Assembly: GCA_011046365.1 (NCBI GenBank)
Contig: DSAS01000142.1
Location: 1-36,160 of the forward strand
DNA: 36,160 bases
From: Fidelibacterota bacterium
GTDB taxonomy: Bacteria; Fidelibacterota; UBA2242
Direction: 5' to 3'
Made by a program: the position numbers and the translations under genes. Below the pieces are notes generated by a model, which saw only the letters and a list, made by a program, of their open reading frames with translations, made no database searches and was not told the DNA's origin. This document shows, piece after piece, positions 2,160-11,490 of the stretch (position 1 is its first letter; every line of letters begins with the position of its first letter).

Positions 2160-3446
2160 TCATGCGGCTATTTTTTTAAGAATCTTAAAAAATTCCGGAA
2201 ACGAAATTCCCACGCAATCGGCGTCCCGAATCACCGATTCACCATCGGCGAGACAGGCGGCTACCGAGAGCGCCATCGCAATCCGGTGATCATCATAGCT
2301 GCGGCAGACCGCACCGTGCAACGGCGTCGGACCCTCCACGACAAAACCGTCTTCGGTTTCTTCAATTTCTGCGCCCATCTTTTTCAACTCGCTGGCAATC
2401 GCCGCAATCCGGTCGCTTTCCTTGATCCGTAATTCCAGGGCATCACGGACAATCGTTTGTCCCTGTGCCTGCGTCGCAATGACGGCGATCAGCGGCAGCT
2501 CGTCAATCAGCTTCGGGATCAGGCTGCCGCCGATCTCAGCGGCTTTCAGCGGTGCCGACGTAACCCGGATATCCGCCAGCGGTTCATTGGCAACCAGCCG
2601 TTCATTTAGGAGTTCCGGCGCGGCACCCATCTGCCTGAGGACGGATAGCAGCCCGGTGCGCGTCGGATTGACACCCACATCGTGTAGAGTCAACCGGCTG
2701 CCCGGGACCATTAGTCCCAGGGCGATGATAAACGCCGCCGAGGAAATATCTCCGGGAATCTGAAAATCCCGCGCCGTCGGTTGACGATTTTTACCGAGAG
2801 AGATAACTGCGCCGTCCCGTTGCACCTCCACGCCGCAAAATGTCAGCATCCGCTCGGTATGATCCCGGCTCCTGACCGGCTCTATGACCTGTACATTTCC
2901 AGTGGCATAGAGACCAGCCAGCAGGACCGCCGACTTGACCTGGGAGCTGGCGACCGGCAATTCGTAGTTCACATCAGATAATGACGTTCCCCGAATAAAA
3001 AGCGGTGCGAGTCGGTTGGCTTGGCGTCCGTAGATTTCCGCGCCATTCTGGACCAGCGGTTTGATAATCCGATCCATGGGGCGCCTTCGCAGACTGGCGT
3101 CACCGGTCAGGACAGTCGCAAAATTCTGCCCTGCCAGCAGACCGCAGAGCAGGCGCATCGTCGTCCCGGAATTTCCGCAATCCAGAACATTTCCGGGTTC
3201 GCTTAGCGACCAGCGTCCTTTTCCATGAATTTCAACTTCGGAACCGCGGCTTCGAATATCCGCCCCCAGACGTTGCATACAGTTCAGGGTGGACTGGCAG
3301 TCAATTGCCGAGGAGTAATTCCGGATATGGCTGATTCCCTCACTGACGGACGCCAGCATCGCCGCCCGGTGTGATATGGACTTATCACCCGGAATAATGA
3401 CATCGCCCCGCAGACGTGTAATTTGTGACAAAGAGATGTCCGCCAT
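2160..3446 (-). CDS. aroA: 3-phosphoshikimate 1-carboxyvinyltransferase (EPSP synthase)
   Basis: Transfers the enolpyruvyl group of PEP to shikimate 3-phosphate, step six of the shikimate pathway, in the cytoplasm. The 428 residues match the family length. Visible motifs: P-G-D-K-S-I-S-H-R-A near the N-terminus, G-N-S-G-T-T-M-R-L-L (PEP site) near residue 92, R-D-H-T-E-R-M, K-E-S-D-R-I, and D-D-H-R-I-A-M near the C-terminus. It is the last gene of the aromatic operon: its ATG directly abuts the TGA of aroF, indicating coupled translation. It converges on the response regulator gene with only a 10-base gap. Confidence 0.98.
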   Translation of the reverse strand: MADISLSQITRLRGDVIIPGDKSISHRAAMLASVSEGISHIRNYSSAIDCQSTLNCMQRLGADIRSRGSEVEIHGKGRWSLSEPGNVLDCGNSGTTMRLLCGLLAGQNFATVLTGDASLRRRPMDRIIKPLVQNGAEIYGRQANRLAPLFIRGTSLSDVNYELPVASSQVKSAVLLAGLYATGNVQVIEPVRSRDHTERMLTFCGVEVQRDGAVISLGKNRQPTARDFQIPGDISSAAFIIALGLMVPGSRLTLHDVGVNPTRTGLLSVLRQMGAAPELLNERLVANEPLADIRVTSAPLKAAEIGGSLIPKLIDELPLIAVIATQAQGQTIVRDALELRIKESDRIAAIASELKKMGAEIEETEDGFVVEGPTPLHGAVCRSYDDHRIAMALSVAACLADGESVIRDADCVGISFPEFFKILKKIAA

Positions 3447-4460
3447 TCAGATACTCCGACCGACGGCTTTGGCAATCGTGCTCAGCTCTTTCATCAGTTG
3501 TGCAAAATGCTCGAAAGTAATCGATTGATAGCCGTCGGATAGCGCCTTATCGGGAAAAGGGTGCACCTCGACCATGATCCCGTCTGCACCGGCGGCAATG
3601 GCGGCTTTGGACAGCGGAATAATCATATCCCGGCGACCGGAAGCATGGCTGGGGTCCACCAGCACCGGCAGGTGGGATTGCTGCTTCAACTCGGGAATGC
3701 TGCTGATATCCAGGGTAAAACGGGTATAATCATTAAATGTGCGGATGCCCCGCTCACAGAGGATGACGTTATAATTGCCACCGGACATGATGTATTCAGC
3801 CGCCAGCAGAAATTCGTTAATCGTGGCGGAAATGCCGCGTTTGAGCAGAATCGGTTTTTTAGCCCGTCCCGCCCGTTTCAGCAGGGAGTAGTTCTGCATG
3901 TTGCGCGCCCCGATCTGAATCAGGTCTACATACTCTTCCACCAGGTCAAAACTCTCCGTATCCACGGCTTCGGAAACCACCGGTATGCCGATCAGCTCCC
4001 GGGCATCTGCCAGAATTTCGAGTCCCCGTTTACCCAATCCCTGGAACGAGTAAGGCGAAGTGCGTGGCTTAAAGGCACCGCCCCGGACTAAATCCGCACC
4101 CAGCATCTTCAGCAGACGACCACCCTCGTTGGTTCCCTCCACGGTTTCGACGGCGCAGGAACCGGCGATGATCGTCAGCTTTTTTCCGCCGATAGCGACC
4201 TTACCCACCTTCACAACCGTATTTCTTGCCTTCATTTCCCGGCTGCCCAGTTTGTAAGGCTTTTTTACATTATCAATATTCTTGACGCCGGGCATTTTGG
4301 CGATTTGTTCCCGATCCAGTCCGGCATGATCGCCGGTCACCTCCATGGTGCCGGTGGAACCCTTGGGAAGATTGTGCACATCACCTCCCATTTTTTTAAT
4401 CAATTCGGTAACCCGCATAATCTCCTTTTTGGTTGCCGAATCGTCCATTGTAATGACCAT
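3447..4460 (-). CDS. aroF: 3-deoxy-7-phosphoheptulonate (DAHP) synthase, type I with ferredoxin-like N-terminal domain
   Basis: Condenses PEP and erythrose 4-phosphate into DAHP, the committed first step. The first ~70 residues (M-D-D-S-A-T to about K-P-Y-K-L-G) form a small ferredoxin-like regulatory domain as in the Thermotoga-type enzyme, where Tyr/Phe feedback acts on it. The barrel follows, with [18 protein letters not shown] and [10 protein letters not shown]. At 337 residues it fits that subclass. It lies between aroQ (15-base gap holding a GAGGAG ribosome site) and aroA (0-base gap). Enzyme feedback would add a second control layer below the operon attenuator. The symbol aroF is conventional; aroG would serve equally well. 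Confidence 0.97.
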
Positions 4461-4475
4461 TTTAATATTTCTCCT

Positions 4476-4913
4476 CTACAAAGCATTTATATTACGAATA
4501 AAATATTCTATCGCCAGAATATATCCGAGATACCCCAGCCCGCTGATTTGACCCCGGCATACCGGCGCAATCAGCGAGGTCTGCCGGAAGCTCTCCCGGG
4601 CTTGAATGTTGCTCAGATGAACCTCGATCACCGGTACCGCGACCGCCTCAACGGCATCCCGGATCGCTACGGAACTATGGGTAAATCCGCCGGGATTTAA
4701 AACAATCCCGGTCAGCCCTCCCGATTGCTGAATGGCGTCAATAATTTCGCCTTCATGATTACTCTGAATGATATCCACTGTTACGTTTTTTGACTTTGCA
4801 AAGCTGGCGATTTTGGCATTGATTTCAGCCAGAGTCAGCGTGCCGTAATGCTCCGGCTTACGCTGCCCCAGCAGATTCAAATTTGGTCCATGAATGATCC
4901 GAAATGCTGCCAT
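4476..4913 (-). CDS. aroQ: 3-dehydroquinate dehydratase, type II
   Basis: Dehydrates 3-dehydroquinate to 3-dehydroshikimate. The 145 residues are typical for the type II dodecameric enzyme. Visible: H-G-P-N-L-N-L-L-G-Q-R at the N-terminus, the active-site loop Tyr in P-E-H-Y-G, Q-S-N-H-E-G-E-I-I-D, N-P-G-G-F-T-H-S-S-V, and E-V-H-L-S-N with the catalytic His. The start at 4913 is backed by AAGGAG six bases upstream, which lies inside the 3' end of aroKB. The genes overlap by 37 bases in different frames, so translation is probably coupled. Confidence 0.97.
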   Translation of the reverse strand: MAAFRIIHGPNLNLLGQRKPEHYGTLTLAEINAKIASFAKSKNVTVDIIQSNHEGEIIDAIQQSGGLTGIVLNPGGFTHSSVAIRDAVEAVAVPVIEVHLSNIQARESFRQTSLIAPVCRGQISGLGYLGYILAIEYFIRNINAL

Positions 4914-6472
4914 GTCATCTCCTTTATGTTACTTTGTCCAATTGCTGACAGGAGGGGAATTTTCAGCTTTCCGTCCGCTAATTTTTTATCCTGCTGCAAA
5001 TACTCACGCAATTGCCCGGGTTCGAGTCCCGCCGGCAGACTTGCCGGCAGCCGGTAACGCCGGATTGTATGGACGATCCTTTTAACATCGGTCTCCGGCA
5101 ATCCGGATATTTGACGCGTAATCTGTGCCTCCACTGCCATTCCGATCGCCACCGCCTCGCCGTGTTTTAATTTGCGGTAGTGGCATCCGGCTTCGATTAT
5201 ATGACCGATGGTATGCCCGAAATTCAGCAGAGCTCGCAGCCCGGATATTTCCTTTTCATCCGCCTGAACAACTGCCCGCTTAATCTCAACACAGCGGCGA
5301 ACGATGCGAGCTAAAAGCTCATTATCGCGTGCCAGAACTGCTTCCGGATTTTTTTCCAGCAATTCAAACAGTTCCCTGTCCCGGATCAGGGCGGTTTTAA
5401 GCACCTCCGCCAGACCGTTACGGAATTCCCGCCCGGATAGTGTTTGCAATAGCTCAATATCCGCCAGCACCAGCTCCGGCTGGTAGAAACTGCCGATCAG
5501 ATTCTTACCGCTGCGATGATTTACGCCCGTCTTGCCACCCATGCTGGCGTCCACCTGCGCCAGCAGCGTCGTGGGAATATTTATCAGCCGGCAACCCCGC
5601 TTCAGCGTCGCCGCCACAAAGCCGGCAATATCGGTTACCACGCCGCCGCCCAGCCCGACAATCAAATCGCTACGGTCGAATTGATGTTCCAGAAGGGTGT
5701 CGTAAATTTTCGAAACCGTCTTCAGTGATTTAAAGCGCTCGCCGTCGGGAATAACGACATGTAAGACGGAAATATCATCAGCCGCAAGTAGCGTGGTTAG
5801 CCGGTCCAGCAGCAGCCCGCCCACCAGCGGATTGGTGATAACCGCACAGCGTCGGGGAATTTTACGCAGCAGCTGCAGCAGCGTGTCCAGAATTCCGGTA
5901 CCGATCTTAATCTGGTATTCGTCGCCCGCCGTTTTTACCGGTACGGTGGTGGTTCGGAATGCTTTGGACTTGTCGATTCCAGGACGCGCCTGCCGGATGA
6001 TTTTTTCGGCAATTTCCACCGGTGTCAAAACGTCGGTATCAATCGCGACACTTGCAAAGTCATACATCCCGCGGCGCTCTGCCAGCAATTTCTCCACCGC
6101 ACCAGGCTGTTTCAGGAGGGGACGGGTTTCATCACCCTTTAACCGCTTTTTTACCGTATCGGCAGTCACTTTCAATTGTACAACTGTGCCCAGTTGTGCC
6201 AGACGCTTCCGGTTCAGCGGGTTCTGGACGATGCCGCCGCCGGTCGCGAGGACGATATTTTGCAAACCGCGGAGTGAAGCCAGCATTTTGCGCTCGAGCC
6301 GGCGGAAATAGACTTCACCGCTCTCTTTAAAAATGGTGCTGATGCTGCGCTTTTCCGCCAGTTCGATCATCCGGTCGGTGGACAGAAAACGCAGACCGCT
6401 GCGCCGGGCGATTTCACGTCCCACACTGTCTTTGCCACTGCCCATGAATCCGATCAGAATCAGATTTTGCAT
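4877..6472 (-). CDS. aroKB: Bifunctional shikimate kinase / 3-dehydroquinate synthase (AroK-AroB fusion)
   Basis: One 531-residue chain carries two pathway enzymes. The N-terminal ~170 residues are a shikimate kinase with P-loop G-F-M-G-S-G-K-D-S-V-G, shikimate-binding D-R-M-I-E, and G-G-G-I-V lid-side motif. From about residue 185 comes a dehydroquinate synthase: G-D-G-E-R-F-K-S and G-G-G-V-V-T-D in the NAD site, K-T-G-V-N-H-R-S-G-K-N-L-I-G-S-F, then the zinc ligands in L-L-N-F-G-H-T-I-G-H-I-I-E and K-L-K-H-G-E-A-V-A. It catalyses steps five and two, so the fused activities are not consecutive. The same fusion is known from Thermotoga. It overlaps aroC by 13 bases and aroQ by 37. Confidence 0.96.
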   Translation of the reverse strand: MQNLILIGFMGSGKDSVGREIARRSGLRFLSTDRMIELAEKRSISTIFKESGEVYFRRLERKMLASLRGLQNIVLATGGGIVQNPLNRKRLAQLGTVVQLKVTADTVKKRLKGDETRPLLKQPGAVEKLLAERRGMYDFASVAIDTDVLTPVEIAEKIIRQARPGIDKSKAFRTTTVPVKTAGDEYQIKIGTGILDTLLQLLRKIPRRCAVITNPLVGGLLLDRLTTLLAADDISVLHVVIPDGERFKSLKTVSKIYDTLLEHQFDRSDLIVGLGGGVVTDIAGFVAATLKRGCRLINIPTTLLAQVDASMGGKTGVNHRSGKNLIGSFYQPELVLADIELLQTLSGREFRNGLAEVLKTALIRDRELFELLEKNPEAVLARDNELLARIVRRCVEIKRAVVQADEKEISGLRALLNFGHTIGHIIEAGCHYRKLKHGEAVAIGMAVEAQITRQISGLPETDVKRIVHTIRRYRLPASLPAGLEPGQLREYLQQDKKLADGKLKIPLLSAIGQSNIKEMTWQHFGSFMDQI

Positions 6473-7599
6473 ATTCGTTTCCGATATTGTTGAAAATTGG
6501 TTTTAATATCTTCGATGGCGTCGCCCCCGAACTTTTGAACGATGGCATCGGCGAGCGTCAGCGCCAGCATGGCTTCACCCACGACGCCCGCCGCCGGTAC
6601 GACGCAGACATCCGCCCGCTCTTTCTGAGCCGCCACCGCTTCGCCGGTACGGATATCGGCGGATTGCAACGGCGTTCGCAGCGACGGCAATGGTTTAATC
6701 TGGATATATACGACAATATCCTCGCCATTGCTCATGCCGCCCTCGATTCCGCCGGCGTGATTGGTTTTCCGGTAAAAACCGTCTGTATTGCTGTAATAAA
6801 TCTCATCCTGAGCCGCTGAACCCGGTCTGGTGGCAATATCCCGGTCGCCGATGATCACGCCCTTGACCGACGGAATTGACATCATTGCTGCGGCGATTTT
6901 TGCGTCCAGGCGCTCATCCCCCTGGGTGTAAGTTCCCAGACCGGGACAAATCCCCCCTGCACGGATTTCCGCAACCCCGCCCAGTGTATCGCCCTTTTGC
7001 GCCGCCGCATCAATCCGCTCCAGCATGAGCTTCTCTCTCTGTGGATCGGCACAGCGCAATGGCGACTCTTCCGTCTCATCCGCTGTCCGCGTTTTTTGGT
7101 CAATTTCGATATCGGCAATGGCAATGGTCTGCGACGAAAGACGAATTCCAAATTCCCGGAGAAAAAGTTTCAACAGTGCACCGGCAGCCACCCGTGCGGC
7201 GGTCTCCCGGGCGCTGGCGCGTTCCAGAACATTGCGAACGTCCCGAAACCCGAATTTTTGCACACCTGCCAGATCGGCATGCCCGGGACGCGGCGCGGTT
7301 ACCGGTTCGTCAACAGTCAGTTTTGCCACATTCATCCGCCCCTGCCAATTGACGTAATCCCGGTTTTGAATCCAGAGGGCGATAGGTGTTCCAAGAGTCT
7401 GACCGTCCCGAACGCCGGATAAAATTTCCGCTTTATCGGCTTCGATCTGCATCCGCTGACCGCGACCGTAGCCCTGCTGGCGCCGCCGGAGTTCGGCATT
7501 GATAAAGGCAATATCCACCGGCAGTCCCGCCGGAAAACCGTCAATTATAACGCTCAGTCCTTTGCCGTGCGATTCGCCGGCGCTCATTATTCTAATCAT
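6460..7599 (-). CDS. aroC: Chorismate synthase
   Basis: Converts EPSP to chorismate using reduced FMN, the last step of the common pathway. The 379 residues fit the family. Visible signatures: S-A-G-E-S-H-G at the N-terminus, R-R-Q-Q-G-Y-G-R-G-Q-R-M, T-A-P-R-P-G-H-A-D, R-A-S-A-R-E-T-A-A-R, and G-G-I-E-G-G-M-S-N-G. The start overlaps the end of aroE by 8 bases and the end overlaps the aroKB start by 13, so it is embedded in a translationally coupled chain. Confidence 0.98.
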   Translation of the reverse strand: MIRIMSAGESHGKGLSVIIDGFPAGLPVDIAFINAELRRRQQGYGRGQRMQIEADKAEILSGVRDGQTLGTPIALWIQNRDYVNWQGRMNVAKLTVDEPVTAPRPGHADLAGVQKFGFRDVRNVLERASARETAARVAAGALLKLFLREFGIRLSSQTIAIADIEIDQKTRTADETEESPLRCADPQREKLMLERIDAAAQKGDTLGGVAEIRAGGICPGLGTYTQGDERLDAKIAAAMMSIPSVKGVIIGDRDIATRPGSAAQDEIYYSNTDGFYRKTNHAGGIEGGMSNGEDIVVYIQIKPLPSLRTPLQSADIRTGEAVAAQKERADVCVVPAAGVVGEAMLALTLADAIVQKFGGDAIEDIKTNFQQYRKRICKI

Positions 7600-8371
7600 G
7601 ATTCATTCCTAACGCTTTTTGCATGACTGCCACCGGAGCTTTTTCACCGGTAAAAATCTCAAAGGCTCTGACGCCCTGATAGAGCAGCATTTCCAGACCA
7701 TTGATGCAGCGGATGTTGCCATGCCGCCGCAAGGGAAATTTGTAATTCAGGTCCAGATACAACGAACCCCTTTGCATGAAAGGGGTTACGTCGTCCTGAA
7801 AATCAACCGGGCTGGCATTGATCACCATGGCAGTGTTATTAAGAGTGGTCTGAAGAGCATCGGCGGGAATGACTGTAGCCGCATCAAAGCGCGACGCCAG
7901 TGCTTCCGCTTTGGCTCTTTCAATATCATGGACGTAGAGCCGGTCAGGCTGGTACTGTTTCAGCACCCAGGCGGCGGCTTTCGCCACACCGCCGGCACCG
8001 ATCATGAGCACATTTTTGCCCTGCAGATCAATATCCGCATGTTCCAGCAGGACCCGGAAACCGTAGACGTCGGTGTTGTACCCGGAAAGACCATCTTCGT
8101 CGAAAACGACCGTATTGACGGCACCCACCTCCTGCGCTTCTTTAGATATACGATTGAGAAAGAGCAATACCGTTTCTTTGTGTGGGTTTGTAACGTTCAC
8201 TCCCCTGCAGCCGATCACTCCCAGGGCGTCCAGGACATCCTTTAAGCGGGTCGGTTCTACAGGTATCCTGAGATAGACACCGTCAATTTTTTTCGCCCGA
8301 AACGCCGCAGTATGCATGCGGGGCGAATAGGTCGTCTCCAACGGATAGCCGATAATGCCGGTAATCAGCAC
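7592..8371 (-). CDS. aroE: Shikimate dehydrogenase
   Basis: NADP-dependent reduction of 3-dehydroshikimate to shikimate. 259 residues, normal for the family. Substrate-domain motifs: S-P-R-M-H near residue 16 and N-V-T-N-P-H-K-E with the catalytic Lys. The nucleotide-binding loop is G-A-G-G-V-A-K-A, with D-I-E-R-A-K downstream. The start codon is GTG (8371-8369), three bases after the tyrA stop; the ribosome site AAAGGAG lies across the end of tyrA, which favours this start over later ATGs. The gene overlaps aroC by 8 bases. Confidence 0.96.
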   Translation of the reverse strand: MLITGIIGYPLETTYSPRMHTAAFRAKKIDGVYLRIPVEPTRLKDVLDALGVIGCRGVNVTNPHKETVLLFLNRISKEAQEVGAVNTVVFDEDGLSGYNTDVYGFRVLLEHADIDLQGKNVLMIGAGGVAKAAAWVLKQYQPDRLYVHDIERAKAEALASRFDAATVIPADALQTTLNNTAMVINASPVDFQDDVTPFMQRGSLYLDLNYKFPLRRHGNIRCINGLEMLLYQGVRAFEIFTGEKAPVAVMQKALGMNHD

Positions 8372-8374
8372 GCT

Positions 8375-9490
8375 CTACTCCTTTCCTGAGCTTTCCGCTC
8401 TGTTCAACCACTCCTTTGACCTGCACATGCTCTGAACGAAACGCTCCGGTTGATCATTCAAAACACAATCTACGAGCGCGGTCATAGCCTGTTGCATCTG
8501 CTCGTAGAGCTCCTTTTTAAAAGGATTATATTTCTGAATTAAATAATAGAGCTCCGGATTTTCATTGATAACGCTGGAAGCCGTGGCCATTTGTGACAGA
8601 AAGGTTGTACTGGCAATGGCTCGCAATTCGTTATACCGGAACCCGCTGCCCGCCAAAATTTTCATGTAGATAATATTGCTGATATGTGAGAGTCCCAGCA
8701 CGTAGGAAATCGCCCGGTCGTGGGTGTCCAGTGCCAGATCAACACTCCGGGCGGCGGTGTCTCTGAAAAAGGCTTTTGCCCGGTTTAGCGCTTCCCGGCT
8801 ACCGCAATTACAGTAGCAGACCACCTTGTCGGAAAGGGTGCGTACACTTGGTCCGAACATGGGATGAATACTGGTAATCAGGAGTCCCCGCTGCCGGGCT
8901 TTTCCGATCGCCTCTCGCAGGTGTCCCTTGATGCTGGCAATGTCGAAAACCAATCCCCGGAAATTCAAGTCCGCAATGCGTCCGATCATTTCCGGAACCG
9001 CATCCAGCGAAACCGAAATCACCGCGCTGCTGGCGCGCGCCAGCCCCTCTCCGAGCGTCGCCACCGCCTGAAATCCCGGCGCCGTTTCCACAATATCATA
9101 GATCAGCACCTCATGTCCCTGCGTCTCAAAAAAAGAGGCGAGCCAGCGTCCCATCTCACCGGCGCCGCCGACAATCAGGATCGTCTCCTTATCACCGCTG
9201 TAGGCGCTGTAATGCAGCCGCTCCTGCTGCATCCGGGACTCGCCGATCAGCAGCTGCATGACCGCTTTGACGAAATCCGGCGACAGATTCAGATCCCGGG
9301 CGACTGCCCCGGCATTCTCGATGACCGCCTTTTCCACCTGATAATTCAAAAGCGGCAGACCGGCGGCTTTCTTAATCTGTCCAATGGTGTGAGTCAGTTC
9401 GAGTCGCTTGCCCACCAGCCGAATAATCTCCCGGTCTACCCGGCGCACTTCTTCGCGCATCTCTTTCAGTTTTTCCATCTTCTCTTTCAT
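8375..9490 (-). CDS. tyrA: Chorismate mutase / prephenate dehydrogenase fusion (T-protein)
   Basis: Chorismate to prephenate, then oxidative decarboxylation to 4-hydroxyphenylpyruvate, the Tyr branch. Residues 1-90 are an AroQ-type mutase helix bundle (R-R-V-D-R-E-I-I-R-L-V, Q-V-E-K-A-V-I). From about residue 105 comes a Rossmann domain (I-L-I-V-G-G-A-G-E-M-G) followed by H-P-M-F-G-P, characteristic of prephenate dehydrogenases. The 371 residues match the E. coli T-protein layout. It is the first structural gene of the operon, starting 15 bases after the attenuator hairpin. The ATG at 9490 has no strong ribosome site; an in-frame ATG four codons later is preceded by AAAGAG and is a plausible alternative. 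Confidence 0.95.
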   Translation of the reverse strand: MKEKMEKLKEMREEVRRVDREIIRLVGKRLELTHTIGQIKKAAGLPLLNYQVEKAVIENAGAVARDLNLSPDFVKAVMQLLIGESRMQQERLHYSAYSGDKETILIVGGAGEMGRWLASFFETQGHEVLIYDIVETAPGFQAVATLGEGLARASSAVISVSLDAVPEMIGRIADLNFRGLVFDIASIKGHLREAIGKARQRGLLITSIHPMFGPSVRTLSDKVVCYCNCGSREALNRAKAFFRDTAARSVDLALDTHDRAISYVLGLSHISNIIYMKILAGSGFRYNELRAIASTTFLSQMATASSVINENPELYYLIQKYNPFKKELYEQMQQAMTALVDCVLNDQPERFVQSMCRSKEWLNRAESSGKE

Positions 9491-9505
9491 TTGTCATTAA
9501 AACCA

Positions 9506-9533
9506 AACCGCGGGTCTTTTCAGGCCCGCGGTT
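9506..9533 (-). terminator. Attenuator terminator hairpin before tyrA
   Basis: Inverted repeat AACCGCGGG / CCCGCGGTT (9 perfect pairs) around a 10-base loop containing CCTGAAAAG, followed on the minus strand by TTTGGTTTT. It lies 15 bases before the tyrA ATG and 21 bases after the leader stop, as expected for segments 3:4 of a transcription attenuator. The T tract is interrupted by two G bases, so it may be a moderate terminator. Confidence 0.85.
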
Positions 9534-9644
9534 CTTATTCTATTTCTAATTTGCTTAATGGTTTCGAATCCGCGGACCTGGCTCAATCTGCCCATTAAAA
9601 TAGTAATAGGTGGTATAATTCAGAGGCATATTGATCGGTTCGCG
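9506..9644 (-). promoter_or_regulatory. Tyr-responsive attenuator of the tyrA-aro operon (segments 1-4)
   Basis: Segment 1 (9637-9644, CGCGAACC on the minus strand) can pair with part of segment 2 (GGTCCGCG) with one mismatch. Segment 2 (9570-9580, CAGGTCCGCGG) can pair over 11 bases (one G-U) with CCGCGGGCCTG in the 5' half of the terminator hairpin, which would prevent termination. Segments 1 and 2 lie inside the leader ORF on either side of the Tyr codons. This is seen directly in the sequence; the regulatory reading follows classical leader-peptide attenuation. Confidence 0.85.
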
Positions 9645-9653
9645 CTTCATCAT
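9555..9653 (-). CDS. Tyr-rich leader peptide of the tyrA-aro operon (31-32 residues)
   Basis: A short ORF with two adjacent ATGs (9653 and 9650), ending TAA at 9557-9555. Its middle reads N-Y-T-T-Y-Y-Y-F-N: four Tyr and one Phe codon within seven, very unlikely by chance directly before a tyrosine-biosynthesis operon. A longer open frame exists upstream from a GTG, but the promoter falls inside it, so only this short form is likely to be made. No ribosome site is evident; the -10 box ends 6 bases before the first ATG, so the transcript may be leaderless. The peptide itself probably has no function beyond ribosome timing. Confidence 0.85.
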   Translation of the reverse strand: MMKREPINMPLNYTTYYYFNGQIEPGPRIRNH

Positions 9654-9659
9654 ACACCA

Positions 9660-9687
9660 AATATAGGCTTGAAAATCTTTAGTGCAA
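9660..9687 (-). promoter_or_regulatory. Predicted promoter of the tyrA-aro operon
   Basis: Minus-strand TTGCAC (9687-9682), a 16-base spacer, and TATATT (9665-9660). The trp unit has the same spacer length and an identical -10 box. Predicted initiation is at or within a few bases of the leader ATG. Confidence 0.6.
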
Positions 9688-9743
9688 AGAATTTTTTTCA
9701 AAGACCGATAAATCACAGGAGGTTCAGACGGAGGTAGTAATAA

Positions 9744-9931: not shown

Positions 9932-11299
9932 TCATTTCCCATTCAACGGCAGATGCTTGAGCGCCGCCCGGATTTTTTCCTCGGGATATTCGTAATCCTC
10001 CAGCTTTCCGGACAGATAGGCGTCGTAAGCCGCCATATCCACATGCCCGTGACCGCTCAAGCCGATCAGGATCGTTTTCGTCTCGCCGGATTCTTTGCAT
10101 TTCAGGGCTTCATCAATGGCAACCCGTACGGCATGGTCGGTTTCCGGTGCGCAGATGATCCCTTCATTGCGTGCAAACTGCAGCCCGGCTTCGAAGGTTC
10201 CCAGCTGGTGCACCGCCGTGGCTTCCACCAGTCCCAGTTTATGCAGATGAGTAACAATCGGCGCCATGCCGTGATAGCGCAGCCCGCCCGCATGCACCGG
10301 CGGCGGCATGAATTCATGCCCCAGGGTGAACATTTTCAGCAGGGGTGTCATGCCGGCTTCGTCACCGTAATCATAGGCGTACAATCCCTTGGTCAGCGTT
10401 GGGCAGCTGGTGGGTTCCACATTGATAATCCGCAGGTCCGGTTTCTTTCCATCCAGTTTGTCCTTTAAAAAAGGCAGATAGAGTCCCGCAGCGTTGGAGC
10501 CGCCGCCGACGCAGCCGATAATGATATCGGGATAGTCGCCGATATCTTCCATCAGCGTTTTGGTTTCCTGCCCGATAATCGTCTGGTGCAGCAGCACATG
10601 ATTCAGCACGCTGCCCAGAGAATAATGGGTGTCATCCCGGGAAACCGCATCTTCCACTGCCTCGCTGATCGCCAGACCGAGACTGCCGGGGCAATCCGGG
10701 TCCTCTGCCAGGATTTTCCGCCCCACAGCTGTTTCCTCGCTCGGGCTGGGTACGCAATTGCCGCCCCAGGTCTCCATCATGATCCGGCGGTAAGGCTTCT
10801 GGTAAAAGCTGCACTTCACCATATAGACTTTGATTTCCAGCCCAAACAGCGCTCCGGCAAAGGAGAGGGCGCTGCCCCACTGACCGGCGCCGGTTTCCGT
10901 GGTGATCCGCTTGATGCCCTCTTTTTTATTGTAATATGCCTGCGCCACGGCGGTATTGGGCTTGTGGCTGCCGGGCGGGCTGGTGCCCTCGTATTTGTAA
11001 TAGATTTTTGCCGGCGTGTCCAGCGCCTTCTCCAGACGGTGGGCGCGGTAGAGCACCGTCGGACGCCACAGCCTGAAAATATCCTGCAGCTCCTCGGGAA
11101 TCTCAATATAGCGCTCGGAACTCATCTCCTGTCTGATCAGCTCCATGGGAAAAAGCGGTGCCAAATCCTCCGGCCCCAGCGGCTGTTTGGTGCCCGGATG
11201 CAACGGCGGCGGCAAGGGATCCGGCAGGTCCGGCAACACATTATACCAGTGCGTCGGCATTCGTTTTTCTTCCAAAATGTACTTCGTCTGTTCCATCAT
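9932..11299 (-). CDS. trpB: Tryptophan synthase beta chain, TrpB2 type
   Basis: PLP enzyme condensing indole with L-serine to tryptophan. 455 residues with the long N-terminus ([10 protein letters not shown]) that separates TrpB2 from ~400-residue TrpB1. PLP Lys in G-S-H-K-P-N-T-A, catalytic Glu in [11 protein letters not shown], phosphate loop [11 protein letters not shown]. Ribosome site AAAGGAG precedes two consecutive ATGs; the second (11296) has better spacing. No trpA is adjacent, consistent with TrpB2 enzymes that work alone or salvage indole. Transcription starts behind a Trp-rich leader and attenuator. The hairpin at 9881-9922 closes the unit. Confidence 0.95.
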
Positions 11300-11348
11300 T
11301 CACTCCTTTTTTGATTTATGGATTTCCTCTGACTGTTATAAAACAAAA

Positions 11349-11374
11349 ACCGCGGCTCTTTTCAGGTCCGCGAT
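11349..11374 (-). terminator. Attenuator terminator hairpin before trpB
   Basis: Stem ATCGCGG / CCGCGGT (seven pairs, one G-U) around a 12-base loop containing CCTGAAAAGAG, followed on the minus strand by TTTTTGTTTT. It lies 23 bases past the leader stop and about 50 bases before the trpB start: segments 3:4 of the attenuator. The T tract is better than in the tyr copy. Confidence 0.85.
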
Positions 11375-11484
11375 CTATTTTGCTATGGTTTTTTGACTTA
11401 TTGTTGCTGACCGATCGGCAAACCTGAAAAGCTATCCACCCGGTGCCACCACCAGTTCCAGGTATTGTTTATTGTCAGGTTCGC
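11349..11484 (-). promoter_or_regulatory. Trp-responsive attenuator of trpB (segments 1-4)
   Basis: Segment 2 (11418-11431, CTTTTCAGGTTTGC on the minus strand) can pair with segment 3 (11358-11371, GCGGACCTGAAAAG) over 14 consecutive positions including two G-U pairs, sequestering the 5' arm and loop of the terminator. Segment 1 (11475-11484, GCGAACCTGA) can pair with segment 2 over 10 positions (one G-U). Segments 1 and 2 flank the Trp codons inside the leader ORF. All four elements of a classical attenuator are visible. Confidence 0.9.
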
Positions 11485-11490
11485 TCGCAT
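11398..11490 (-). CDS. trpL: Trp-rich leader peptide of trpB (30 residues)
   Basis: ORF of 30 codons from ATG 11490 to TAA 11400-11398, too short for standard gene calling. Its centre reads N-N-T-W-N-W-W-W-H: four Trp codons (11460-11446) in five positions, immediately upstream of a tryptophan synthase gene. This is the textbook sign of a trp leader peptide. No ribosome site precedes it; TATATT ends 8 bases before the ATG, so a leaderless start is likely. Stalling at the Trp codons would leave segment 2 free about 14 bases downstream. Confidence 0.92.
   Translation of the reverse strand: MRANLTINNTWNWWWHRVDSFSGLPIGQQQ

Follow-up and report, generated by a model that had tools for sequence, protein, structure and literature searches.

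A putative Tyr/Phe-responsive transcription attenuator ahead of a tyrA-aro operon in an uncultured Candidatus Neomarinimicrobiota genome

An open reading frame (ORF) that encodes a tyrosine-rich leader peptide, followed by mutually exclusive RNA helices, precedes an aromatic biosynthesis operon in the window (the whole stretch of 36,160 nucleotides that was analysed). It is very probable that ribosome-mediated transcription attenuation controls this tyrA-aroE-aroC-aroKB-aroQ-aroF-aroA operon. The element possesses, at the level of sequence, the features of the trp/phe attenuator class, and, as judged also from modelled folding, it is best described as a real, conserved attenuator that would respond to Tyr and Phe. 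Attenuation at aromatic codons is textbook knowledge for E. coli trpL and pheL, and discussions of control over the whole shikimate pathway usually centre on repressors (TyrR, TrpR) and on DAHP synthases subject to feedback inhibition. In the window, all enzymes of the common pathway, together with the only AroQ-type chorismate mutase found, appear to be gated by translation of a single test peptide. The host is an uncultured member of Candidatus Neomarinimicrobiota known from a metagenome-assembled genome (G000; 2.68 Mb, 89% complete), of which the window is contig C15. In a collection of named genomes, a TyrA query located loci on two contigs of one genome alone, 80-81% identical, and these bear the name of this phylum.

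Leader, competing helices and predicted switching

The leader sits on the minus strand in the gap of approx. 440 nt between trpB2 and tyrA (Table 1). The run Tyr-Thr-Thr-Tyr-Tyr-Tyr-Phe, to which the initial annotation had drawn attention, is indeed present and lies inside an ORF of 31 codons; a second in-frame ATG at position 9653 is not conserved. The annotation had also proposed that a leader segment pairs with the terminator hairpin before tyrA. This pairing was located as an 11-bp helix, with one G-U, between CAGGTCCGCGG and CCGCGGGCCTG; it starts 19 nt past the last Tyr codon, and the duplex with its flanks amounts to -26.8 kcal/mol. The CAGGTCCGCGG stretch can alternatively be sequestered by positions 9645-9624 in a protector helix (-22.6 kcal/mol), and computed folding gives -24.1 for the antiterminator hairpin versus -18.3 for the terminator. 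The folding of the leader region as a whole beats that of 200 out of 200 dinucleotide shuffles (z = -3.6).

Table 1. Positions of the operon genes and of the annotated or predicted regulatory features in the window
Feature	Position	Strand	Remarks
tyrA, chorismate mutase-prephenate dehydrogenase fusion	8375..9490	-	leads the operon; ATG 9478, used in relatives, is a possible start
aroE, shikimate dehydrogenase	7592..8371	-
aroC, chorismate synthase	6460..7599	-
aroK-aroB fusion, shikimate kinase / 3-dehydroquinate synthase	4877..6472	-
aroQ, type II 3-dehydroquinate dehydratase	4476..4913	-
aroF, DAHP synthase	3447..4460	-	one found in the assembly
aroA, EPSP synthase	2160..3446	-
trpB2, TrpB-like PLP enzyme	9932..11299	-	TIGR01415; between the Trp attenuator and the Tyr/Phe attenuator
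Putative leader promoter	9660..9688	-	TTTGCA 9688-9683, 17 nt, TATATT 9665-9660; conserved in 7 genomes
Leader peptide ORF, MKREPINMPLNYTTYYYFNGQIEPGPRIRNH	9650-9555	-	ATG 9650, TAA 9557-9555; 31 codons; kept in 7 genomes
Regulatory codons Tyr-Thr-Thr-Tyr-Tyr-Tyr-Phe	9617-9597	-	final Tyr-Phe invariant in 7 genomes; stall scan
Segment 1, 5' half of the protector helix	9624..9645	-	pairs with 9593-9571; moderate support
Segment 2, CAGGTCCGCGG	9580-9570	-	partner is segment 1 or segment 3
Segment 3, CCGCGGGCCTG	9531-9521	-	3' half of the antiterminator, 5' arm of the terminator
Intrinsic terminator	9499..9533	-	stem-loop 9533-9506, tail TGGTTTT to 9499
Trp attenuator of the same build, before trpB2	11342..11490	-	leader MRANLTINNTWNWWWHRVDSFSGLPIGQQQ with its stop codon (11490-11398), then terminator; covariance model; conserved

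The predicted transcription start lies at approx. 9654-9652, 0-4 nt 5' of the leader ATG. Since one match to the promoter consensus is expected by chance, it is conservation that argues for this promoter: the -35 and -10 boxes are kept in all 7 genomes that carry the leader, and the distance from the -10 box to the leader ATG is 9 nt in the window and 8-9 nt throughout. A TATATT-like box is also found 7-10 nt 5' of the ATG in most other leaders detected in this analysis, the exceptions being those of G007 and G008 and a few super-operon leaders (see below). Because the -10 boxes stand so close to the ATGs, the leader ORFs are probably leaderless.

In the proposed mechanism, transcription would begin at or beside the leader ATG. 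As long as Tyr- and Phe-tRNA are charged, the ribosome would reach the stop codon and partly cover CAGGTCCGCGG, and the hairpin formed by segments 3 and 4 would terminate transcription 8 nt before tyrA. Upon scarcity of charged Tyr-tRNA (and probably of charged Phe-tRNA), the ribosome would stall at Tyr-Tyr-Phe and break the protector helix; CAGGTCCGCGG, thus released, would engage the terminator's 5' arm, and the operon would be transcribed. Without a ribosome, the protector helix would form and transcription would terminate.

This scheme was modelled by a stall scan, an equilibrium calculation in which a ribosome of assumed footprint is placed on each codon. In the window, the calculated probability of the antiterminator is 0.65 at Tyr16, 0.92 at Tyr17, 0.90 at Phe18 and up to 0.99 at Gly20; it is approx. 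0 from Ile22 to the stop codon and 0.10 without a ribosome. Antitermination is predicted only for stalls at about Tyr16-Gly20, and termination for a ribosome at the stop codon or for none, so that, in the model, the leader behaves as a classical attenuator does. By equilibrium folding, a clear switch is seen in three of the seven genomes (the window, G003 and G001); the switch is weak in G013 and G011 and absent in G005, and G002 is predicted to be antiterminated even without a ribosome.

It may be argued that the hairpin simply terminates the trpB2 unit, that the short ORF is a product of chance and that tyrA has a promoter of its own; trpB2 does lie upstream on the same strand, and intergenic terminators are common. 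However, the hairpin is found approx. 400 nt past trpB2, and its tail ends 8 nt before the tyrA ATG at 9490, which therefore leaves no room for a promoter past the hairpin; a transcript start downstream of it, considered in the initial annotation, is thus not supported. Moreover, the leader ORF, the promoter position and the antiterminator are co-conserved with the hairpin in seven genomes, and in G005 both the Tyr/Phe leader and the hairpin are retained, while no trpB2 was found nearby. A trpB2 terminator is accordingly a very unlikely explanation.

Operon content and the amino acid signal

The operon behind the leader provides the seven common-pathway activities on six genes (aroK and aroB being fused) plus the chorismate mutase-prephenate dehydrogenase fusion, and it covers the Tyr branch up to prephenate dehydrogenase. 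The TyrA fusion is the sole domain match to PF01817 in the assembly, and exactly one AroQ-type chorismate mutase, fused to TyrA, was found in each of 6 genomes searched (a search confined to the AroQ type, with AroH outside it). The pheA gene encodes a lone prephenate dehydratase and is located away from the operon; no leader or attenuator was found ahead of it. A second match to PF00793 scores far under the DAHP-synthase cut-off and adjoins a CTP-synthase-like gene, and for both reasons it is taken as KDO8P synthase, which makes the DAHP synthase single. Given a single AroQ-type chorismate mutase, a single DAHP synthase and a pheA gene elsewhere, the operon would feed prephenate to Phe as well as to Tyr.

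This bears on what the leader senses. It had been proposed at the outset that a tyrosine-sensing switch controls all seven common-pathway activities and the Tyr branch; the operon content and the predicted attenuator agree with this proposal, except that Tyr is not likely to act alone. The attenuator probably senses Phe besides Tyr, because the Tyr-Phe codon pair is invariant and the operon holds the only AroQ-type chorismate mutase found; such a pair fits an operon that supplies prephenate for both amino acids. Nor can sensing of Tyr be assumed, since the AroR leader of C. glutamicum, which carries Phe-Tyr-Phe, is reported to respond to Phe and not to Tyr (PMC11802643). By analogy with AroR, and with the same attenuator in place, the effective signal could be Phe (or translation generally) instead of Tyr. 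The invariant Phe codon right after the last Tyr codon and the Phe-rich leader cores of G005 (FFSYYFF) and G011 (FFSYYF) speak for this reading, as does the reported reaction of AroR to limitation of Phe but not of Tyr. On the other hand, the window leader has four Tyr codons versus one for Phe, the antiterminator is predicted to be freed by stalls at Tyr16, Tyr17 and Phe18 alike, and it is the Tyr branch that belongs to the operon, with pheA elsewhere. A signal without Tyr thus appears possible but rather unlikely, and joint sensing of Tyr and Phe is preferred.

Conservation and a predicted Trp attenuator nearby

The TyrA fusion has relatives in seven other genomes of the family. Six of these have an assembled upstream region, so that, with the window's own, seven leaders are available; the six relatives encode MKRELTYMPINYTLYFTGHIYTGPRIQNQ, MKRNLKYMPFNYTLYFIGHICTGPRIHR, MKRELTYMPFNYTLYFIGHIHSGPRIQNQ, MKTNLKHTLIYNLYFTGRNRLGPSILKH, MKTDRKNMTNFFSYYFFSGYNRSGPLILN and MKTNRKNMTNFFSYYFSGYNRSGPSILN, and the gene order after the leader is identical wherever it is readable. 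A comparison of this kind had been suggested from the window sequence, and the relatives with the same operon do keep Tyr codons as well as the competing pairings. One Tyr codon and the TTT (Phe) codon that follows it are invariant, and the number of Tyr codons falls to two in G013. In the seven-genome alignment, 89.5% of the antiterminator cells are paired, versus 28-41% when the helix is slid by 1-3 columns, and three of its pairs have changed on both sides. The main stem of the terminator is paired in 95% of cells. The protector is less strictly kept, with 88% of cells paired in its core helix and 60-73% in the outer helices. Shuffle controls for covariation were not significant with these seven closely related sequences. 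Overall, comparative conservation at the sequence level is the strongest evidence against a chance assembly of parts.

The distribution of insertions and deletions also bears on whether the leader is translated. Those in the leader coding region measure 6, 3 and 3 nt and all keep the frame, and those past the stop codon are not restricted to multiples of three. A T-box, or another leader RNA that binds tRNA or a metabolite independently of translation, would likewise be expected to exert control by Tyr via a terminator/antiterminator pair, but frame-keeping changes argue against it, as does a leader of only approx. 150 nt whose 5' half is nearly all coding. Neither the window nor eight related loci gave a match to any Rfam family at gathering score, the T-box and Trp/Phe leader families included, with the exception of one tRNA; on these grounds the T-box was rejected, and translation-independent leader RNAs of this kind as a whole are scarcely credible here.

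The conserved C-terminal GPRI/GPSI stretch of the peptide could point to a nascent chain of the TnaC type that arrests the ribosome upon sensing free tyrosine, rather than to sensing of tRNA charging. The same stretch is, however, accounted for at the RNA level, since it is encoded by the pairing segment CAGGTCCGCGGATT, and the aromatic core is free in length and order between families, which fits the counting of codons and not the recognition of a peptide. Peptide-mediated arrest is therefore judged improbable, to about the same degree as a trpB2 terminator, and attenuation by tRNA charging remains the preferred reading.

A phylum-wide search with covariance model R2 yielded no more members of the window's leader family beyond its taxonomic order. 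The weak matches L056-L061 and L041 (G014) proved to be ordinary terminators after unrelated genes, and the pattern CAGGT...CCTGAAAAG gave mainly chance matches apart from the known leaders.

Ahead of trpB2, the covariance model of the Tyr leader matches positions 11342-11490 at E ~6e-4, and the corresponding sites of relatives at values down to 2e-6. The leader at this site has the core WNWWW, a terminator of its own and a CAGGT/ACCTG pairing. The window would thus hold two attenuators in tandem, one for Trp and one for Tyr/Phe. Trp leaders of this type stand before trpB2 in G000, G001, G002, G003, G011 and G013; leaders with Trp runs are found before trpE in G005 and G008 and before trpB in G016 and G017. 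The Tyr and Trp twins are alike chiefly in the terminator region; of 20 pairs compared, 19 have a local alignment that scores above every one of 200 shuffles. From these sequences it is plausible that the Tyr/Phe switch arose from a Trp attenuator by duplication and codon exchange; convergence on one pairing core could also account for the likeness. In G005, the Trp attenuator is kept (L063; G005:C160:13795-13943) and no trpB2 was found between it and the Tyr/Phe attenuator; an ATG after the Trp attenuator resembles a trpB2 start, and the gene has perhaps been lost or broken.

Known attenuators and aromatic leaders across the phylum

In E. coli trpL (trp) and pheL (pheA), as in the window, protector, antiterminator and terminator compete and the leader ORF carries codons for the end product. 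Each of these leaders serves one terminal branch, whereas that of the window combines Tyr/Phe codons with control over the common pathway and is predicted to be leaderless. The E. coli ilvGMEDA and thrABC leaders each sense several amino acids with codons that match the products of their operons; they concern the branched-chain and Thr families, in contrast to the aromatic Tyr-Trp-Phe combination described below. In Sinorhizobium meliloti trpL, the 5' end of the transcript is the leader ATG itself (PMC7298713), as predicted here, but this alphaproteobacterial leader has Trp codons and precedes the trpE(G) operon. The nearest known Tyr/Phe system is AroR, ahead of the C. glutamicum aroF operon (Neshat et al. 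2014, via PMC11802643). As far as it is described in that source, AroR likewise has a short leader, with Phe-Tyr-Phe, before a common-pathway gene, and stalling of ribosomes at Phe/Tyr codons raises transcription; the same logic would apply here. The window, with a Tyr/Phe leader and a DAHP synthase in its operon, is likened to AroR from the published description. AroR belongs to another phylum and differs in sequence, and its operon as described there holds aroF, whereas seven common-pathway activities, chorismate mutase and prephenate dehydrogenase lie behind the window's leader.

Putative attenuators ahead of tyrA supraoperons were listed by Song et al. in 2005 (PMC1173090, Table 7), including one such cluster attached to the trp operon in Desulfovibrio vulgaris. 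They come from a terminator/antiterminator database, and the parts of that paper available describe no leader peptides or Tyr codons and leave the mechanism open. The initial annotation regarded Tyr-codon attenuation of a complete aro operon as no standard arrangement, which is a fair judgement, with AroR and the supraoperon attenuators of 2005 as precedents; the predicted arrangement also recurs in several families of the phylum. In Flavobacterium, leader-peptide attenuation of amino acid operons has been suggested (PMC9723704). A literature search that covered few subscription journals found no paper pairing leader-peptide attenuation with Marinimicrobia and no description of a Tyr-Trp-Phe leader.

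For a survey of the phylum, DAHP synthase loci were located and 60 surrounding regions taken. G007 and G008, which belong to the window's own family, have a differently ordered operon aroF-aroB-aroD-aroE-aroA-aroC-pheA-tyrA (that of G008 being split over two contigs) behind the leader cores YYYNYYFF (L148) and YFFYYFYF (L151), respectively; both leaders are unrelated to the window's, and their antiterminator segment extends into the stop codon. In family f7, the operon tyrA-pheA-aroF-aroA-aroE-aroC follows leaders with YYFF or YYYF. In G028 and G070, an AroH-type chorismate mutase gene and aroF are preceded by YFYFFRFYY and YYYYYYSY, respectively; the Tyr/Phe-rich leader of G028 (L205) has a tRNA gene immediately 5' of it. 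Super-operons of the order trpEGDCFBA-pheA-tyrA-aroF-aroA-aroE-aroC occur in G063 (gene content checked with Pfam), G244, G080, G239, G129, G104 and G069, with leaders such as YYWWFFY, YYWWF and FFYYWWF. There is one leader with Tyr, Trp and Phe codons per super-operon (L233 in G063, and L236, L242, L246, L247, L248 and L249; for example, CYYWWFFYGG). Clusters of trpEGDCFBA with aroF (f5, f10) have the leaders NYWWYY, YYWWYYY, FWFWYY and NYWFWWRY.

Competing pairing was tested in 29 leaders beyond the window's type as the best pairing of the stretch past the regulatory codons with the 5' arm of the terminator, and it was significant in 20 (p <= 0.02 vs shuffles) and not in 9. An aromatic short ORF with a terminator precedes 28 of 109 aromatic gene heads, a fraction lowered by the operon-internal genes among the 109, versus 1 of 164 other heads. 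When all residue triplets were ranked in the gene-head scan, Phe-Trp-Tyr came fourth; the higher ones all hold Phe and Tyr, and therefore the signal is one of Tyr/Phe, to which Trp is added before trp genes. Trp codons in the leader core track trp genes (22/22 vs 4/20, p = 3e-8) and at least two Tyr/Phe codons track tyr, phe or aro genes (33/33 vs 1/9, p = 8e-8); both p-values count related genomes as independent, and as the leaders were gathered for overall aromatic content, only the separation of Trp from Tyr/Phe is informative.

These sequence patterns suggest that the window element belongs to a set of leaders, spread over the phylum, whose codons correspond to what their operons make. We somewhat favour the broader view of a modular, phylum-wide system of aromatic attenuators without a 5' untranslated region, in which the mix of codons follows operon content and a single Tyr-Trp-Phe leader stands before super-operons for chorismate and all or most aromatic amino acids, and in which the Tyr/Phe switch of the window's lineage may be a recoded duplicate of the neighbouring Trp attenuator. 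With leader codons that change together with the genes behind them, the phylum would offer a natural series on the rewiring of attenuator specificity, which also bears on how one leader weighs three amino acids and on leaderless coupling of translation and transcription. Such leaders could, moreover, serve as a metabolic read-out for uncultured organisms.

In this survey, no such leader was found before the aro genes of the sister genera G010 and G014 or of lineages f2-f4 and f8, nor before the aro operons of G016, G017, G018, G019 and G022. One f8 locus (L206, G085:C140) has two tandem DAHP synthase genes. Leaders with His codons and this promoter spacing were also sought, but no convincing series emerged. 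A single match that combines promoter, ATG and His run (G020:C4:3341-3378, ATGTGCACCATAAAACATCATCAT) might be a histidine leader.
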